Of a stretch of 64,000 nt of DNA, positions 13,737 through 57,781 are shown piece after piece. This DNA is from Diatrype stigma (taxonomy: Eukaryota; Ascomycota; Sordariomycetes; Xylariales; Diatrypaceae): NCBI GenBank assembly GCA_022225965.2, contig JAKJXP020000053.1, forward strand, positions 248,001-312,000, read 5' to 3'. Every line of letters starts with the position of its first letter. Positions within the stretch are counted from its first letter, which is position 1. Position numbers and translations under genes: made by a program. The notes beneath the pieces were generated by a model, which did no database searches, had not been told where the DNA came from, and saw only the letters and a program-made list of their open reading frames with translations.

Positions 13737-14136
13737 TATAAGATTATACGGTATATGGTTATACTGTATTGGATAATACGGATGTAGCAGTGGAATAAAT
13801 AGGCACTAAGTAAGGTTAAGCAGACGTATATAAAGGTAGTTATTCAAGTATGAAGTAGTATTCGTGTATGTGTATAAGTGTGTGTGTGTGTATGTATAAG
13901 GTTCCCACTTCCTGTATATCAGCTAGGTGGCTATTACCCCTATTTATATACAGAGTATTTCCTAATGCGGTAATTGTCCCTATCCTTTCTATTACAATGG
14001 AAGTCCTTATTTCCTTTATCCCATACAGTAATTACTTCCGGCAATATACCGTTCCCAGCAGTAATTCTGCTATATAAATGCAACTCCTTTATAGTTGCTT
14101 TGTTATACTGCCTTGCTGCATTCAGCAAATCCTACA
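13737..14136 (-). repeat. Copia LTR (3' LTR in element sense)
   Basis: A 400-bp terminal repeat matching 19815-20228 over its whole length. Most differences are transitions: this copy keeps more G where the other has A (for example around 13750-13790). It also has a shorter GT microsatellite at about 13865-13895. The conserved central part includes GGTTCCCACTTCCTGTATAT. Confidence 0.93.
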
Positions 14137-14145
14137 CCCCCCCTT
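14137..14145 (-). other. Copia polypurine tract
   Basis: In element sense, AAGGGGGGG directly abuts the TGTAGG start of the 3' LTR. This is the expected position and composition for the plus-strand primer of reverse transcription. Confidence 0.85.
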
Positions 14146-14577
14146 AATAATTATCGAAGGCCGTAAGTAAGCATTAATATATAGGATTTGTCCTTATAAC
14201 TGAATAACGTATATGTATATATCAGGAAAGCCGTTATAACGGTAAAACCTATATAAAAAAAAAGGTAATTATATAAGCGAATAATGGGTGCAGGTATATA
14301 AGTGGTTATAATTAACTAAGCACCTGCTTTGCCGGCTTATAATTATATAAGCAAGGCTATATTGGAACAGCTTGTAATTATATAAACAAGGCTTTGCTTA
14401 TATATAACTATATAAGCCCCTATTGGAATATAAAAAGCTTTCCAGCTTATCCTTTCTTTATTCGGTGTTAAAAATTAATAAAAAATCACCTATTTATCGT
14501 ATAAAGCCCAGGATAAAACGTACGTATACGGAAAAAATCAAGCTTTCAGTAGGGAAACCTTTAAAGAAATAAAACCA

Positions 14578-17500
14578 CTATATACTAATTATATTAACTA
14601 GTTTTATTAGCTTGTTTAATATAACGCTGGATACCGGCTTTATTAAAAAATCAGCTAGCTGTTTTGCTATATTAATATGATATAATATAGCTTTATTATT
14701 TGCTACTACCTCCTTATTAAAGTAATAAGTTATATCTATATGTTTAGTTCTTTTATGGAATTCAGGATTATTAGCCAGCTTTTAAACGGCATCGTTATTT
14801 ACATATACCTTTAAAGGCTGGTCCGAATAACCTAGGTTTAATTCTTTATTTAAGTAATTAAGCATATTACCTAAATATACGGTTTCTTTTAATCCTTCCT
14901 TTAAAGCCATATATTCTGCTTTACAGGAACTTAAGAATACTATTTTCTAAAGTTGGGAGGTCCAGCTTATAAGGTTAAAATTACCCCTATTTGCTAAGCT
15001 GGTTATATACCCACTTATAGATTTTCTATCTAATAGGTTACTTCCCCAATCAGAATCTATATAAACCTCTAATTCCAAAACTCCGTTGCATTTATATATA
15101 ACCCCTATATTAAGGTGCTTTAATAAATACCTTCATATTTTATATAACTCCTTAAAGTAGTTTATACTTGGGTTGCTCATAAATTTGGCACAAGTACATA
15201 TAGCGTAAGTTATATCAGGTCGAAATTTTAAAGCTAGGTATAATAAAAAACTTATTTGCTTTTAATAATCCACAACTTCTATATTTAAAGCTATTGATTT
15301 ATTTTTCTCAAGCTTAAGGCCGGAAATATAAGAAATATTTCCTGGCTTTATATTTGGATTATTACGTATATTGTATTTAATGAACAGCTTTTCTATATAT
15401 CGTTTCTGGCTTATACGTATTTCCTTATTAGGATAATCGATTTTTAAATCGTTACCTAGGTAAGTAGAAACGGGACCTATTCTATTTAGTTTAATAGATT
15501 TTAACAGCTTTGTGGCTAAATTATTTATACCGGCTTCGAACGGGCTTATTATTAATAAGTCGTCTATATGGCAGATAATAACAATATTACTTATTTTATT
15601 TACAAATACTCCTTCGTCGTAAGGAAATACAATAAATCCTTCGGTTAATAATACTTGGAATAGGAATTTATACCAAAGCCTAAATGATTGTTTTAAGCCG
15701 TATAAAGCTTTATTAAGCTTAGCTACCTTATTATAAGCTTTTAAATAAAAACCTTCTAACAGCCGTATATAGATTTCTATATCTATATTAAAATAAACAA
15801 AAACGTTTTAAACGTCGTATTATATTATAAGCCACCCCTTATTAACGGCTATTATTAATAATAAGTGCTACGTTTCCGGTCTAGCTGTAATGGAAAAGGT
15901 TTCCAAATAATCTACCCCTAACTATTGGTTATATCCTTATATAATAAATCTGGCTTTAAAGCGTTTAGATTTATCTTTATTAGTTATTCAGTTAGGTTTA
16001 ATAAAGTTACCTTTAATAATAGGTTTAGATTTAAACAGCCAACGAATTCCTATAAGGTATTTTCCCTTAGGTAGGTCCATTATACTGTAAGTATTCTATT
16101 TCTCCAGTTCCGTTATTTCTGCTTTGCAAGCTAAATACCAGGATTCTCGGTTTATACCACCCATTGCTTGCTTATACGTAGCTGGTTCGGTTATAAAAGC
16201 CGAAAAAATAAAATCAGCTTTTCCTTTTCTTTTTATATTCATAAGCTAATTAAATAATAACGTATCTTCCATTATATATAACAAATGGTTTATATTAACC
16301 TTTATACAGTCCTATATAGGATCTAAAGATATAAGAAAGCTTGGAAGTATAAGGGTTAAATTATTAAGCTTAACCCTTTTATTTAAATTCTAGTTATTAT
16401 TTAAATTTCGATTAGCTGCAATAATAACGGCTGCTCGTTTTATTGGATTACCTATAGCAGCTACAGCTACTTTAATTACATACCGTCTGCCCGGTAATTC
16501 CTTTATTTACTTATAATTAAAATTATCAGCTAAATCAATTGGTATAATTCCCGAAGCTTCCGTAGCCGTTATAGGTTTATTAAGCAAGTAAGAGGGCTTC
16601 GGTATAACTGGGCTTTCTGCTACCCCCCCATTTTGGATATATGGAAATTCTTTTATATTATCTACGGCTTCCAGGGTGCCCCCCTGGCTTATATTATTAT
16701 TAATAAGGTCCTTAATAAAGATACCGTCCCTTATATTAACGTCCCTAGCCCATATAAGCCTTTGGGTTATTATATCCCAGATTTTGTAATTTTTATTTTC
16801 GATACCGTAGCCGATAATAATCCCTTTTTTAGTCCTAGGATCCAGCTTATGCCGATATTTATTAGTATTATAATAACACATAAAGCCCCATATATATAGA
16901 TTATTAGTATACGGCTTATGCCCATAATAAATTTCAAAGGGCTGCTTATAATTTAAAGCCTTATGTAAGGTACGATTATATATATAAGCCGTTGCCAACA
17001 GGGCTTTATCCCAAAGGTAATTAAGTAAGCCTAAGAAAATAAAGAACGTCCGTACCTTATTTAATAAGGTTAGATTAATACGTTCTATTAAATCATTAGG
17101 TTCCTTTATATAAGCAGGAGTTATATGGTGGATAATACCGTACGTTTATAGGTAAATTTCGAAGCGTAAATTTATATATTCCGTACCGTTATTTATAAAA
17201 AACTCCTTTATTTTATACTCTGTTTAATTTTTAGCCTGCAACTTATATACCTTAAAGACTTCCAAAGCTTTTAATTTTGAATTTAACAGCTTAACTTCCA
17301 CATAACGGCTTCGTTTATTCAAAAAGGTAATATAATATTTATACCTATTATAGGTATTAAGTAATGAACCCCCTAGGTTACTGTATATCCTTTATATAAT
17401 ATTATATTCCTTTTGGCTTATAGCCGTTTTATTTATCCTGCGGTGGTTCTTTGTTATATTGCAAATATTACATTTCCAATTATTATATTGGATATATTCC

Positions 17501-19167
17501 TTTTTCGAAATTCTTACCCCTTTAAATACAAGGAATTCTATTAAGGGCTTTAAGGATAAGTAACCTATTTTATTATGCCATATAATAAGCTTATTAAATA
17601 TAGGCTAATTAATAAGATTCAGTATATTCTTTGGCTTATTTTGGCCGGTAATCACCTTAAACGATATATAATATAACCCGTTTTTGTAATATCCTATTAT
17701 AATAAGGTCCTTATCCTTATTATATAGCTTAATGCTATTAATGGCATTTATAATTATATAACAGTTTTTGAGCTTACTTATGGATAAAAGATTAATACCT
17801 AGTTCTGGAATATAATTAACCCCTTTTATCGTATATACCTTTTTAAAGGTAATACATTGTATTATTAAATTACCAGCTTCTTTTACAATAAGGAAACGTG
17901 CATTGCCCCATTTTACGATTTTATAAATTTGCTTTATATTAATTAATAGATTTCTATTAGCTATAGTAATAAAAGTGACCCCGCTGTTTGCAACTAGCTT
18001 TATTATACCCCTATCCTTAAATTTCGTAGAATTTAAATAATCTGGGCCAGAATTAGTATTATATATAAAGCTGGCTTTATTTATATTATAACGACTTACT
18101 TTAAAATCGTTTATATTTATCCTTCCGGGCGTAAAAGAAAAAAGGAATTCGGAAAGATCTAATTCAAATAAATCCTCGTTTTTCCCTTTATTGGATTCTT
18201 CCGATATAGGGCCCAAAATAAGGGTATCCTCCTCGGAATCGATTAGGGCACCTAGAAGGTCCTCCTGTTTTTTTTCCCGTTTTTCCCTCTTTGAGTTACT
18301 GGAATTGGTGGATTTTAAGGAATTATTTTCCTCTTGTTTCTTTTTATCCCTTTTAGAACCGGACTGTTTCTTATTTACCTTATCCTTTTTTTTCCAGCTT
18401 TTTGAAGCCTTATTGGGATAAAGGAAATAACAGTCCTTTTCCTGGTACCCCTGGATTTTGCAATAGTTGCAGTATATTTATTTTTTCTGTTTCCAAAGCT
18501 TTTTGCTTTTTACGTAAAGAATTTTCTCCTTTTTATCCATTCCTTTGGATTCATCCATTAAGAAGAAAAACAAGGTATCTTTGGAAATTGCTAAAAAATC
18601 CTAACGTAAAAATTGGGTAATATTTTAAACGAAGGCTTTATATTTTTCGGGTAAATTATTTAATACCCAAGCAATTATAACCTAATTTGGAAAGTTTACC
18701 TTATTTAACTTAAGCTCGTTCGTTATAAACCTTATTTTATTAAAGTAAGCTTCGAAGGTATCAAAATCTTCCACAAAGGAATTAAAGAATTCCTTTAATA
18801 ATAAAAATTCTATTATAAATCCTTTTGGCCGATAGTAATTTTTTAAGGCCTCCCAAGCTTTTTTATAGCTTAGTATGGATTTAATATAAATTAAGGGACC
18901 TTCTTCGCAAAGAAGTTATATAATAGCCAGGGCTTTATTATTATCCTCTTGGATTAACGTTTTAAAAAAAATAGGAATTTCCTAACTTTCCTGGCTTTCC
19001 TGGCTTTCCTAAATTTTTACAGCTGTTATGGCTGTTTCCTTTATTTCCAAAGTAAGGGCATGATCCAGATTTTCCTTTATAAAGGTAGCCTTTGCTTTAA
19101 TGGCCCATATTTCATAATTCTTTATGCCCTTAAGCAGCATAATGCGGCTCTAAGGATTAATTCCCAT
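14578..19167 (-). pseudogene. Copia gag-pol polyprotein, multiply interrupted
   Basis: The polyprotein can be followed in element sense from an ATG at 19167 (MGIN) to a TAG at 14578-14580, but is broken by many stops. A gag-like domain occupies about 19167-18480. A zinc knuckle near 18480 reads CNYC..Q-G-Y-Q..KDC, where the histidine ligand has become tyrosine. A protease-like stretch near 18050 reads NTNSGPDY, where the usual D-S-G catalytic aspartate is asparagine. The GAG-preintegrase segment lies in 18216-17605 and integrase C-terminal sequence in 16998-16507. The reverse transcriptase core near 15570 retains HIDDLLII (the xxDD catalytic pair). RNase H retains DSDWGSN..SISGY near 15040, and the end carries KHIDITYYF and QLADFL. 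H-to-Y and D-to-N are both what C:G to T:A transitions produce. Confidence 0.9.
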
Positions 19168-19800
19168 TGTTATAAGTAATTATATAAAAAAGGATAACGG
19201 TAAAATTAATCCCTCTTAAAATCTGGAAGCTTAAATTCTTTTAATTCGAATAATATAAGTTACGTATTTTTTTAACGGTTAAATAAGAAATAACCGTAAA
19301 ATAAATATCGGTAATAATTAAAGATAATACAGCAATATAAGATATTGCTTAATAAATAATTTTTATTTCTACAAGTAATAGAAGTAAAAAAATTCTGTCT
19401 TAAAATATGAAACTTAATTAATTAAGCTATCGAATGGTCCAAGTTTCGTCCAGATCGGGTAAGGTTTGGTAAAGATACGGACGAATAATGGAATAAAAAG
19501 ATCTAATATATTTATAACAGAAATATCTAAATAGTAATTACTTTATGATTTAACGGAAAAAATAAGTATAATAAATCGGTCTTAAAATCTAATTATCTTA
19601 ATCGAAAGGATTCTAATGGTATAGAAATTTCCCGATTCGAATAAGTATTGGTCGAGATATAAATAAATGGATTAAGAATAACCTTAGTTATATTATATCT
19701 GCTGTTTCCTTTAGGGTAACCTTTTTCAAAAGAAGTATACAGGCTTCTGCAAGCCGTATAAAGGTCCTATAGGTATATATAGCCTATTTAGGCGCTACCC

Positions 19801-19814
19801 CGGGCCTCATAACC
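19801..19814 (-). other. Copia primer-binding site (internal initiator-tRNA type)
   Basis: Immediately inside the 5' LTR, element sense reads GGTTATGAGGCCCG. Apart from one extra base this is complementary to the anticodon-arm region of initiator tRNA-Met (GGGCTCATAACC), not to a tRNA 3' end. Drosophila copia is known to be primed by such an internal tRNA-iMet fragment, so the same mode is inferred here. Confidence 0.75.
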
Positions 19815-20228
19815 TATAAGATTATACGATATATAATTATATTATATTAAATAATACGGATATAACAATGGAATAAATAAGCACTAAATAAGGTTAAGCA
19901 GACGTATATAAAGGTAATTATTTAAGTATGAAGTAATATTCGTATATATGTATAAGTATGTGTATGTATATAAGTATGTATGTGTGTATAAGGTTCCCAC
20001 TTCCTGTATATCAGCTAGGTGGCTGTTACCCCTATTTATATACAGAGTATTTCCTAATGCGGTAATTGTCCCTATCCTTTCTATTATAATGGAAGTCCTT
20101 GTTTTCTTTATTCCATACAGTAATTGCTTCCGGCAGTATATCGTTCCCAGCAGTAATTCTGCTGTATAAGTGCAACTCCTTTGTAGTTGCTTTGTTATAC
20201 TGCCTTGCTGCATTCAGCAAATCCTACA
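19815..20228 (-). repeat. Copia LTR (5' LTR in element sense)
   Basis: A 414-bp terminal repeat starting TGTAGG and ending CTTATA in element sense. Compared with the other LTR it carries many extra G-to-A changes on the plus strand, so it is the more heavily RIP-mutated copy. It also has a longer TATGTG-type microsatellite at about 19945-19990, which accounts for the extra length. Confidence 0.93.
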
Positions 20229-49875: not shown

Positions 49876-50806
49876 ATGTCGACCCACGAGGAGCAGGAGC
49901 CTGTTTCTGAGGAATGGAAAGCAGTGGCTCGTGTCGCCTGGCATCTGTTCCTAGGCAGATCCTTTCGGGATCTACATGGATTCCGAAGCATCCTCGTCGA
50001 TCGTATGCGTGCCATGGAAGACTTCTCTAGAGCAGCCTATCCTGATGGGTGGGTTTTGAGATGCTTTTCCGCGGAAGAGTGGCAGGGTATCCGTACAGAC
50101 CTCGATGCCAACCTCGCCCAGAATGATGCCGTGACGACATTTGGCCTCCTATTGTGCCTCGACTACATCGAGGCGGGCTTTGAAAGCCGGGGTGAGACCT
50201 TTGAAGCTTACCTAGGACAGGTCAGTTATTCCGTAACATACACGATCGACTTGAAGACTAACAATTTCCAATAAGGTCGACCAGGAGGACAGAAACAAGG
50301 ACGAGGACGAGGACGAGGACGAGGACGGTGTCACTAGCACTGGCGCCCCCAGTGGCCAGCAGGGCAGCAAGGCCAAGACCAAGGAGAAAGCTGGCAGCGG
50401 AGAGCATGTGTGCCACGCCTGTAACAAATCCGGATTCGATAACGCCTCCACCCTTAATGTTCACTTATCGGAGTGCAACGTCGGCTCCGTCTGCCTGTTC
50501 CCCGTGGGCGCGGGCCCCTGCGGTTTCAAGGCCGAACCTCGGCGCCGGCTGGTAGACCACCTCACCCAGGTCCACCATGCCCAACCGGTCCGAGGAGCAG
50601 ATGGGCGATTCGCGTGCCCCTGGCCAGGCTGCGAGAACAGCACGAAGTTGGACCAGGGTGTTCGACGGTGCATCCGCCGCCACCAGGTTTCGGCTGCGAA
50701 GGCGGCGCAGGAGGCGGCCGAGAACAGTGCCTCCAGCCAGGCCGGCAATGGCGACGATCAGATGGAGGTGGACGGCGGCGACGGCGGCGACGGTTACGAT
50801 GGCTAG
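49876..50806 (+). CDS. Zinc-finger protein with acidic linker
   Basis: Two exons, 49876-50220 and 50276-50806, encode 291 residues up to the first in-frame stop. The 55-bp intron (GTCAGT..ATAAG) is phase 0. The N-terminal 115 residues (MSTHEEQEPVSEEWKAVARV onward) are an unrecognised helical region. An acidic D-E repeat follows (about 122-132), encoded by a GGACGA microsatellite. Then come three putative zinc-binding units: C161-x2-C164-x13-H178-x3-C182; C188-x8-C197-x12-H210-x4-H215; and C229-x4-C234-x12-C247-x3-H251. All have C2H2-like spacing but are degenerate. The tail after 255 is alanine- then D/G-rich. The frame stays coding-like after the TAG at 50804-50806 (see the next feature), so the true C-terminus is uncertain. 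A nuclear role is plausible but not shown. Confidence 0.8.
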
Positions 50807-50854
50807 GGCGAGTACCATAACCAGTACTAGTACTCGTACGAGTACCAACAGCAT

Positions 50855-50891
<37 letters not shown>

Positions 50892-50944
50892 GCCAGAACC
50901 TGCAGCCGATGCCCTACTACGATCCCGAGGACATCTATGACTAG
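50807..50944 (+). other. Stop-interrupted, coding-like C-terminal extension of the zinc-finger gene
   Basis: In the same frame as the zinc-finger protein, after TAG 50804-50806, the sequence reads GEYHNQY, a second TAG (50828-50830), then YSYEYQQH, twelve consecutive Q codons (CAA plus 11 CAG, 50855-50890), GQNLQPMPYYDPEDIYD and a TAG at 50942-50944. The Q-rich, then aromatic and acidic composition and the tidy end look like protein. Both interrupting TAGs stand where a CAG would fit the pattern. Explanations are: C-to-T mutation of two CAG codons; stop readthrough; or A-to-I editing of UAG to UGG, which is known in sexual tissue of Sordariomycetes. Confidence 0.55.
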
Positions 50945-51819
50945 TCTGCTGGCCATAGATGCCCTAAAATGTGGAAGGCGGTCTTACAAGTTTCGACAGC
51001 ACAACATCTGCCTCGACAAAACATACCAACCCCCCAATTCCGGTCTGCGCATATGTTTTCGCTTTGTTTCTTGTCGTGGTTTTCTTTGAGGCAGGAGTTA
51101 GTATAGGGCCATGAAACCTGGTAGCCTTCCTGGTCTTTCCAGTCTCTTTTCCAGTCTCATTAGTATAGGCCACGCCGAATTGCACGATGTCTGCCCACGA
51201 CGAAAAAGCCACAAGTTGGTATCTATACCGAGCGTCTACATATAATTACTTGGAGACAGAAATTCGGCCCAGATTCACGAGTGGTTAGCTACAAGATAAT
51301 CACAAGAGAAGGTGAACAGTACAACACGTTATAACTGGTCTTCGCATCCCTCAGGTGATATCATGTACTCAACACGACTGTTGTAAATGTATAAACATTA
51401 GTATCAAGAGCAAATGCTGCTTGTAGAACGGTACGGTACAGATAGAGTGACTCTCCCTGGCAAAACATCCCCCGTCTTATCAACATATCCACCAACATCT
51501 CGCAAGTATCTCGTATTAATGGCTTCGTTGCTTTGGGGCCCCGAAACCAGGCAGCGGTAAGAACGGCAGTGGTAGAAACGAAGAGCCTGGTTGTTCGTCC
51601 AAGGCGTACCTGTGAAGCACAGGCCAATACAGGCGAAATAACAACCTATTTCGGCTCGCACGAATCCTGTCCATGGTTGTGGCATTCCGCGGCGAGTGAA
51701 AGACCGAAAGCATCCGGGTGTATACTGCAGGCGAGTTCATGGGGCGGGTTTGGGCAGTTCTAGTTGAAAGGTATTAGTAAGCCTACAACATAGGTATATC
51801 CACGTATGATTGTATATGA
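50945..51819. other. Convergent intergenic region
   Basis: It separates the zinc-finger gene (+) from the cysteine-rich peptide gene (-). Short unrecognised frames only. Confidence 0.6.
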
Positions 51820-55826: not shown

Positions 55827-57781
55827 TTAGTAGCTAAAGTCGACATTCCCTAGTCCCATATCTCGTATTCTCTTTTCTTCTTCGGTCCTGTTATCTCCAC
55901 TCGTACTGGGCTCCGACGAATGCGCTGTTTCCACGCTGGAAGCAGTCGACGTGCCTGTCTGTGAGGGTTGCAGCTCGTGTTCTGTAGGTGGTATGCCACT
56001 GTCGGCAAACCCGTCATCACGCAACTGCTGGAAGCTCCAACTTGGTTCGAACTTCTTGCTGTGCCATGCGTAATCGACACGTTCGTACATCTCATCGATC
56101 TGTTCCAGACTGATCTTGCTCGTCTCGAAAACCATGCAATACACAAATACGCCAGCAAGAACACAGAAAGCGCCCCAAACATAAAAGACCTTGGTACCCA
56201 TATCGAGGTACCCCACACCGCTTCCGACCATGTAAGGTGTGCCGTAAGCGATTCCAAAGTTGAGGAGCCAGTTTGATGCCGTGGAGATCGACATAGCTTT
56301 TGCACGAATTTTGAGGGGGTAGATCTCCGAGGTGACGACCCAACAGACCGGACCCCAGGAGGCGGCATAGCAGAAAATAAAACACGACACGAACGCGATG
56401 AGAAGCTTAGCTACTAGCTCGGGCATCTCACTACCAACGACGGTTGATGCTATGGCAATGACCATTTGGCAGGTCGCCATGCCTATTGAACCGGCAATCA
56501 ACAGTCTCCGACGGCCCCAAGTCTCCACAACGAAAAGGCCGGGCACGGTGGAAACCACGTTGACAATATTCATTACAAGAGAGATAAGAAACGGGTCGGA
56601 TATATCGGCACGGTTGAAAAAGGACGTGCCATAATACATGATAAAGTTTATGCCGGTTAGCTGTTGAAGCATCTGGAGGCCGCAACCGGTTAATAGGCGG
56701 CGTCCAAGATGGGGGGATCCAAAGATGATATCCCGGTAATTATCGGGTCCGAGCGTGAGTTCGTAGTCATGATTCGCTTCGATCTCAGCAAGTTCCTCAA
56801 CTAAAGCTGGGTGAGTGATATCGAGACGTCGTAGACGACTTAGCGCTAAGCCCGCAGCGTGCTTATCACCGCGCTTGATCAGATATCGAGGGGTTTCTGG
56901 TAGAACGAGCAAGCCTACGGCGACCACACAAGCCCAGGTGAACTGAAGACCGATGGGGATGCGATATGCAGCCGAACCAGGTAACTCATTCGTAAAAAGA
57001 TTGACTATGGACGCAACTAAGAGTCCTATAGTGATGGATAGTTGATATGCGCAGACCAGAGTGCCGCGGATCCATTTCGGCGCCATTTCGGATTGGTATA
57101 GAGGGACCTGGACGGACACGGACCCGACCCCAACGCCGGCGAAGAACCTAAATGATATCGTCAATAACACGCCCACGAGTTGACGCATCGACATCGGCAT
57201 CGGCATCAGCATCGGCATCGGCATCGACATACCTCCCGGCTAGCAGCATAGGGATGCCAGCTGCACAAACTTGAAAAATCACGCCGAAACAGAAGACCCC
57301 GATGGAAAGGATCAGGGACAAGCGGCGACCTATCCAATCGGCGAACGGTGCGGCGAGGAGCGAACCAACGAAGGTGCCTGCGCTAAGAATCGCGACAATG
57401 AGAGCCGTCTCTTCCGGGGAAATAACCGTTCGGTTCGTTTTGGTATCTTCGTAGCCGGTATTGAACTGTTCGATGAAGGACTTCATGGCGAGAATGCCGT
57501 TGATGGTTCTACATACAGGGTAGTTACCCGTTAGCAAATGACGTGCCATCTTCCCCTTCTCAGCCAGCGGGCGCATAGATGGAACGGAAATGACGGGACG
57601 GATGGATGGACGTGTGGCGTGGCGTAGCATGGCAGCTGCTGTCTGTCGTCGCGGTCGCTGCTTACCCCGTATCGTAACCAAACAAGAGACCACCGGTCGC
57701 AACGAACAGTCCGACCATGATGGCCGGCGCAGAGGATCCGGCGACATTGTCGGGCTTGTGCCATCCCATGGCAATCGCCAT
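55827..57781 (-). CDS. MFS sugar (hexose) transporter
   Basis: Three exons, 57781-57666, 57508-57233 and 57147-55827, encode 570 residues. Introns are 157 bp (GTAAGC..TGTAG) and 85 bp (GTATGT..TTTAG). The start is the first ATG after an in-frame TGA and gives MAIAMGWHKPDNVAGSSAPA. Sugar-porter signatures appear in order: LFVATGGLLFGYDTG-TINGIL (TM1, completed by the first splice), ADWIGRRLS (loop 2-3), AGR-FFAGVGVGSVSVQVPLY (second splice), PETPRYLIKRG (214 onward), QQLTGINFIMYYG (292 onward) and ETWGRRRLL (loop 8-9). Twelve membrane segments and a cytosolic acidic/serine C-terminus (from about 490) are expected. It is a plasma-membrane proton-coupled monosaccharide carrier by family; substrate and affinity are undetermined. 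The second intron starts with a GATGCC hexamer array. Confidence 0.93.

Follow-up and report, generated by a model that had tools for sequence, protein, structure and literature searches.

Sexual-stage A-to-I mRNA editing has been described as a common feature of Sordariomycetes (PMC11087585, PMC11156358). In Fusarium graminearum, PUK1 carries two tandem UAGs that are edited to UGG in perithecia, and stop-loss editing events are reported for 323 genes (PMC4817773). A second system, OLD-ZAO, is described as editing UAG in C2H2 genes that lie beside an OTT_1508 deaminase (PMC12754623). The fungus considered here, Diatrype stigma, is a Sordariomycete of the order Xylariales, family Diatrypaceae; the literature searched contained no paper on A-to-I mRNA editing in Xylariales, on RNA editing in Diatrypaceae or on the locus tag SLS62_006903.

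The gene that carries this tag in the 49-Mb D. stigma genome lies on contig C53 (312,376 bases), in a stretch of 64,000 nucleotides that was analyzed as a whole and is called the window below. Like PUK1 (PMC4817773), it is a single Sordariomycete gene with two in-frame UAGs and coding-like sequence behind them; however, the UAGs of PUK1 sit inside the kinase domain and their editing was measured, whereas those of the window gene precede a short low-complexity tail and are known from DNA alone. As in the F. graminearum stop-loss genes (PMC4817773), a canonical-looking UAG is followed by an in-frame extension, but here two UAGs stand in a row, the tail has a clear codon signature and the editing is putative. 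The locus also resembles F. graminearum CHE1 and the Neurospora crassa zao genes in being a zinc-finger-type gene broken by UAG, although the UAG of CHE1 is placed ahead of the fingers (PMC11169179) and those of the window gene come after them.

Our tentative reading, to which we give a little short of an even chance, is an editing-gated C-terminal extension behind two UAGs. In ordinary hyphae, translation would halt at 50804, and the zinc-finger-like protein would be short with an acidic end. During the sexual stage, Tad2-Tad3-Ame1 would turn the A of both UAGs into inosine, so that each is read as UGG (Trp), and part of the protein pool would acquire a 46-residue Tyr/Gln-rich tail (the 44 encoded residues and two Trp), probably disordered. 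This reading requires that both sites be edited in one transcript. The gene structure, the two UAGs, the coding-like tail and a DUF726 gene with the Ame1 signature are observed; editing at 50805 and at 50829, their joint occurrence and a function for the long form are inferred. The more specific proposal, in which a zinc-finger-like protein gains a prion-like Tyr/Gln-rich tail because both stops of a transcript are edited at the sexual stage, we consider unlikely. If editing does occur, the locus would count among stop-loss editing events, with a tail that bears a coding signature; if it does not, this lineage would have lost a low-complexity tail, which is nothing out of the ordinary. In general, a post-stop tail with a codon signature offers a good test of whether selection maintains extensions of this kind or whether they are noise.

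Gene model and relatives

The window gene has two exons (Table 1) and is a 100% match to SLS62_006903 (P0001, 248 aa), in which the exon junction is identical and the start lies 43 codons downstream of the first in-frame ATG, in the same frame; the public annotation, too, stops at the first TAG. Past that codon, the frame runs exactly as the initial annotation had read it, through GEYHNQY, a second TAG, YSYEYQQH, twelve Q and GQNLQPMPYYDPEDIYD to a third TAG, which amounts to seven codons ahead of the second TAG and 37 behind it, and the adenosine positions it had given, 50805 and 50829, are also correct. Two other open frames that extend over the tail, one on the + strand (50577-51089) and one on the − strand (50465-50956), were rejected as real genes because both score below zero there; over exon 2, the codon score is 0.009 in the frame of the − strand candidate versus 0.09 in that of the gene.

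Table 1. Features of the zinc-finger-like gene and of the sequence behind its first TAG (window positions)
Feature	Position	Strand	Remarks
Exon 1, zinc-finger-like gene	49876..50220	+	from first in-frame ATG
Intron, 55 nt, phase 0	50221..50275	+	CAG/GTCAGT, CTAAC, AAG
Exon 2, finger-like region and acidic/Gly-rich end	50276..50806	+	closes at first TAG
Candidate 63-nt intron, in-frame	50768..50830	+	poor donor GTGGAC, poor branch point ATAAC; disfavoured
First TAG (A at 50805)	50804..50806	+	annotated protein ends here
Coding-like Tyr/Gln-rich tail	50807..50941	+	44 sense codons and one TAG
Second TAG (A at 50829)	50828..50830	+	within degenerate NAGTAC repeat
Twelve Gln codons, CAA and eleven CAG	50855..50890	+	
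Third TAG	50942..50944	+	coding signal lost beyond

P0001 matched no Pfam family at E up to 1, zf-C2H2 included, and in the Pfam profile search exon 1 gave a DUF2090 match that was sub-threshold only. Part of the finger Cys/His of the window protein aligns with C2H2-type relatives, of which one genomic locus (L003) and P0003 match zf-C2H2 above the cut-off, and P0002 and a further locus (L006) below it; on these two results, the window protein is called finger-like and degenerate here. Protein searches, which reach only relatives with shared exact 5-residue words, returned the gene itself, a D. stigma paralogue (P0002, 22% identity) and a relative from another source (P0003, 27%), both aligned over most of the body. 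Neither a tail-bearing protein nor a close orthologue was found among the relatives that these searches reached, and a protein ending in a Q run and a YYDPEDIYD-like stretch, for which the initial annotation had proposed a search, was not among them. Five further places in the genome match parts of the window protein at 27-59% identity. One of them, on contig C54 (L005:1501-1596, − strand), covers 32 residues, is 59% identical to a central part of the window protein and has one TGA within the match; it may be a gene fragment.

The C-terminal ends of P0002 and P0003 are acidic (DVEMEL and EVDMEE, respectively), and the window protein has DDQMEVDGG about 10 residues ahead of its first TAG. Because the two relatives thus reach their acidic ends at about the position of the first TAG, the tail does not look like a family feature, and the gene may originally have ended at the first TAG; the tail would then be an extension of the stop-loss type rather than an interrupted interior of the premature-stop type. 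The same alignment speaks against an essential tail, but it is not decisive, as both relatives are distant.

Coding character of the tail

Read in the frame of the gene, the tail contains no TAA, TGA or frameshift, and its codon usage is coding-like in exactly that frame. Under a codon model built on 24,105 codons in 37 long ORFs from this genome (not all independent, as some loci overlap), the tail reaches +0.206, or +0.241 once the CAG run is removed, against −0.226 and −0.298 in the other + frames and −0.111 to −0.492 in the three − frames; none of 5,000 base shuffles matched it. Of the 32 codons outside the CAG run, 27 have G or C in third place. Scores as high occur in 27 of 20,000 random 34-codon stretches of the window, and among 54 in-frame 45-codon stretches directly behind long open frames, the tail included, the tail ranks first, followed by two stretches (L034 and L020) that both lie within kinase genes. 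Beyond the third TAG, the score turns negative and third-position GC drops from 0.87 to 0.46.

These scores are to be read with some caution. The codon score is noisy: 0.2 is reached by only 7.4% of 691 true coding chunks, which indicates that the low complexity of the tail inflates its score, and two of six 30-codon windows of exon 2 before or across the first TAG score below zero (50456-50545, −0.07; 50546-50635, −0.15, the latter below another frame). It might be asked whether the tail was never translated and is a GC-rich, low-complexity 3′ UTR whose NAGTAC and CAG repeats resemble code by chance, a view that fits the repeat making up much of the tail, a score above that of most true coding chunks, which points to composition, and the ends of P0002 and P0003, both of which come ahead of the tail. 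However, the last 17 codons, which are non-repetitive, score 0.265 with G or C at 15 of 17 third positions and are equalled by just 27 of 20,000 random stretches (the first 16 codons, by 134 of 20,000), and the signal vanishes beyond a stop codon in the very same frame, so that we regard a tail that was never translated as improbable. In our view, the tail is either still coding or was so until recently, part of it being low-complexity repeat, which bears out the coding-like character that had been claimed for it.

Origin of the two TAGs

If the tail was recently coding, nonsense mutations may have cut it off, leaving a decaying 3′ UTR or one allele among several; such a recent truncation is quite possible in our view, if clearly short of an even chance. 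Of the single-base nonsense routes open to the 44 sense codons of the tail, 73% end in TAG at equal rates and 80% when transitions are three times faster, so that no other stop is reached as readily. The finding of TAG at both internal positions is accordingly less telling than it might appear, because the CAG-, TAC- and GAG-rich codons of the tail mostly mutate to TAG, and the argument that CAG would fit the context of both stops has lost weight, as TAC would fit the first site equally well to judge from YDG_GEY. The tail is also of low complexity and missing in both P0002 and P0003, and so looks dispensable; the public annotation closes at the first TAG, and in a 61-nt fold the A at 50805 lies in a stem, not in a hairpin loop. 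Against truncation, a simple neutral decay model gives a likelihood of ≤0.048 at about 10 changes for exactly two TAGs and no other stop or frameshift, a post hoc figure that assumes its rates and 12% indels and has no counterpart for editing. The codon bias of the tail, moreover, is intact, and repeat-induced mutation (RIP) does not suggest itself as a cause.

No near-identical copy of the window gene was found in the genome. For the gene, the indices TpA/ApT and (CpA+TpG)/(ApC+GpT) stand at 0.76 and 1.2; exon 2 with the tail gives 0.95 and 1.18, the tail by itself 2.0 and 1.28, and the window 0.98 and 1.11. The first index is high in the TAC-rich tail, and by the usual RIP cut-offs the second is not RIP-like there. 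With neither a near-identical copy nor a RIP-like second index, RIP is disfavoured as the source of the TAGs. Elsewhere in the window, the AT-rich stretch 14001-20000 (GC about 29-30%) has RIP-like indices of 1.23 and 0.74 and holds an open frame at 17605-18216 (−) that by eye looks retroelement-like.

The TAGs could also be removed by splicing. Among 240 GT/GC-AG pairs that would take out both in frame, the 63-nt candidate in Table 1 was judged the most intron-like: it joins the tail in frame, its length is normal, and its last bases are CTAG, at the second TAG, with ATAAC 14 nt upstream. One other donor has G at +5 (GTTCGA at 50660). The GTGGAC donor and ATAAC branch of the candidate are nevertheless poor compared with the introns of kinase genes, where, at 14 of 18 exon junctions, the best candidate has a YTRAY branch, 12 of these 14 with G at donor +5, although such candidates were ranked partly on these very branch and donor features; of the remaining junctions, three have no YTRAY branch and one has no candidate. 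(These junctions were used in place of a regular-expression survey of donor hexamers, which returned only noise.) As the window gene's own intron carries GTCAGT and CTAAC and the public annotation leaves the candidate unused, splicing seems very improbable. In a sugar-transporter-like gene of the same window, two open frames overlap in a short repeat at 57148-57230 (−), which encodes alternating Asp and Ala in one of them and alternating Met and Pro in the second and may be the site of an intron or a frame change.

Translational readthrough and assembly error, neither of which has specific support, appear less probable still. Ribosomes would need to pass two UAGs, and UAG-G and UAG-U are not known as leaky contexts. 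Against an error in the assembly stands the Illumina NovaSeq depth of 145.9x given for the published D. stigma assembly (PMC12217926), in a paper that nowhere uses the term RNA-seq in its main text. The reading of the initial annotation, which had put editing, readthrough and a freshly truncated allele side by side, is supported in part, by the coding-like tail and by the place of the species in a class in which sexual-stage editing is described as common; between editing and truncation our preference is slight, the searches having returned neither a relative with the tail nor a close orthologue.

Candidate editing sites and editing machinery

Edited sites are reported to prefer a purine at +1, +3 and +4, G at −3 and +2, U at −2 and −1, and a position in hairpin loops (PMC4817773, PMC11156358). 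Both candidate sites have U at −1 and G at +1, as does every UAG. Beyond this, 50805 fits the preferences at −3, +2 and +3 (G at +2 and +3) and 50829 fits that at +3 (A), and both have C at −2 and +4, matching no published preference. In the 61-nt fold, the A of 50829 lies in a 14-nt hairpin loop and that of 50805 in a stem; in sampled structures, the A falls in a hairpin loop in 540 of 1,000 cases for 50829 and in 128 of 1,000 for 50805, and in minimum-energy folds with eight flank sizes it is unpaired in 8/8 and 7/8, respectively. Hairpin loops hold 28.9% of the 1,910 TAGs tested on both strands of the window anyway.

Editing as the explanation of the two TAGs presupposes that the lineage has the machinery. 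The Tad2-Tad3-Ame1 deaminase, to which sexual-stage editing has been tied, is reported to need an MV pair, in place of KN, in the DUF726 protein Ame1 (PMC11087585). The D. stigma genome has five DUF726 matches, which seem to represent four genes, and at the matching place one of them (C25:342432-346490) has MV, whereas the three paralogues have NH, RN and LD; this comparison rests on an alignment of the four D. stigma genes with each other, not with Fusarium Ame1. The MV gene is, by its sequence, likely the Ame1 of D. stigma, and together with the OLD-ZAO-like pair described below it makes a lineage able to edit UAG plausible. No PUK1 orthologue was identified among the kinase matches of the genome, many of which contain stops; those at four loci (L018, L020, L039 and L040) look intronic by eye. 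Of seven DNA-methylase matches, six are free of stops, and one, a weak match, contains TAG and TAA.

Whereas zao genes adjoin the OLD deaminase (PMC12754623), none of the four OTT_1508 (PF14441) matches in the genome lies on C53, and both UAGs of the window gene stand downstream of its finger-like region, on which grounds it was rejected as an OLD-ZAO member. In stretches of 8.0-9.5 kb around the OTT_1508 matches, clear C2H2 fingers are present at one of the four (L072, contig C102), in divergent orientation; at another (L073), two C2H2 motif matches look spurious, and the remaining two (L074 and L075) have none. The pair on C102 (L072:1517-4893; C102:4016-7392), with the OTT_1508 deaminase on the + strand and the C2H2 gene divergent from it, is OLD-ZAO-like, and ahead of the fingers of its C2H2 gene a coding-like frame is interrupted by a TAG (L072:2090-2088). 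The A of this TAG lies in the 4-nt loop of GCUC-AAUA-GAGC, which is the layout of edited ZAO genes, and UAG-interrupted zinc-finger genes of the edited layout thus seem to be present in this genome.
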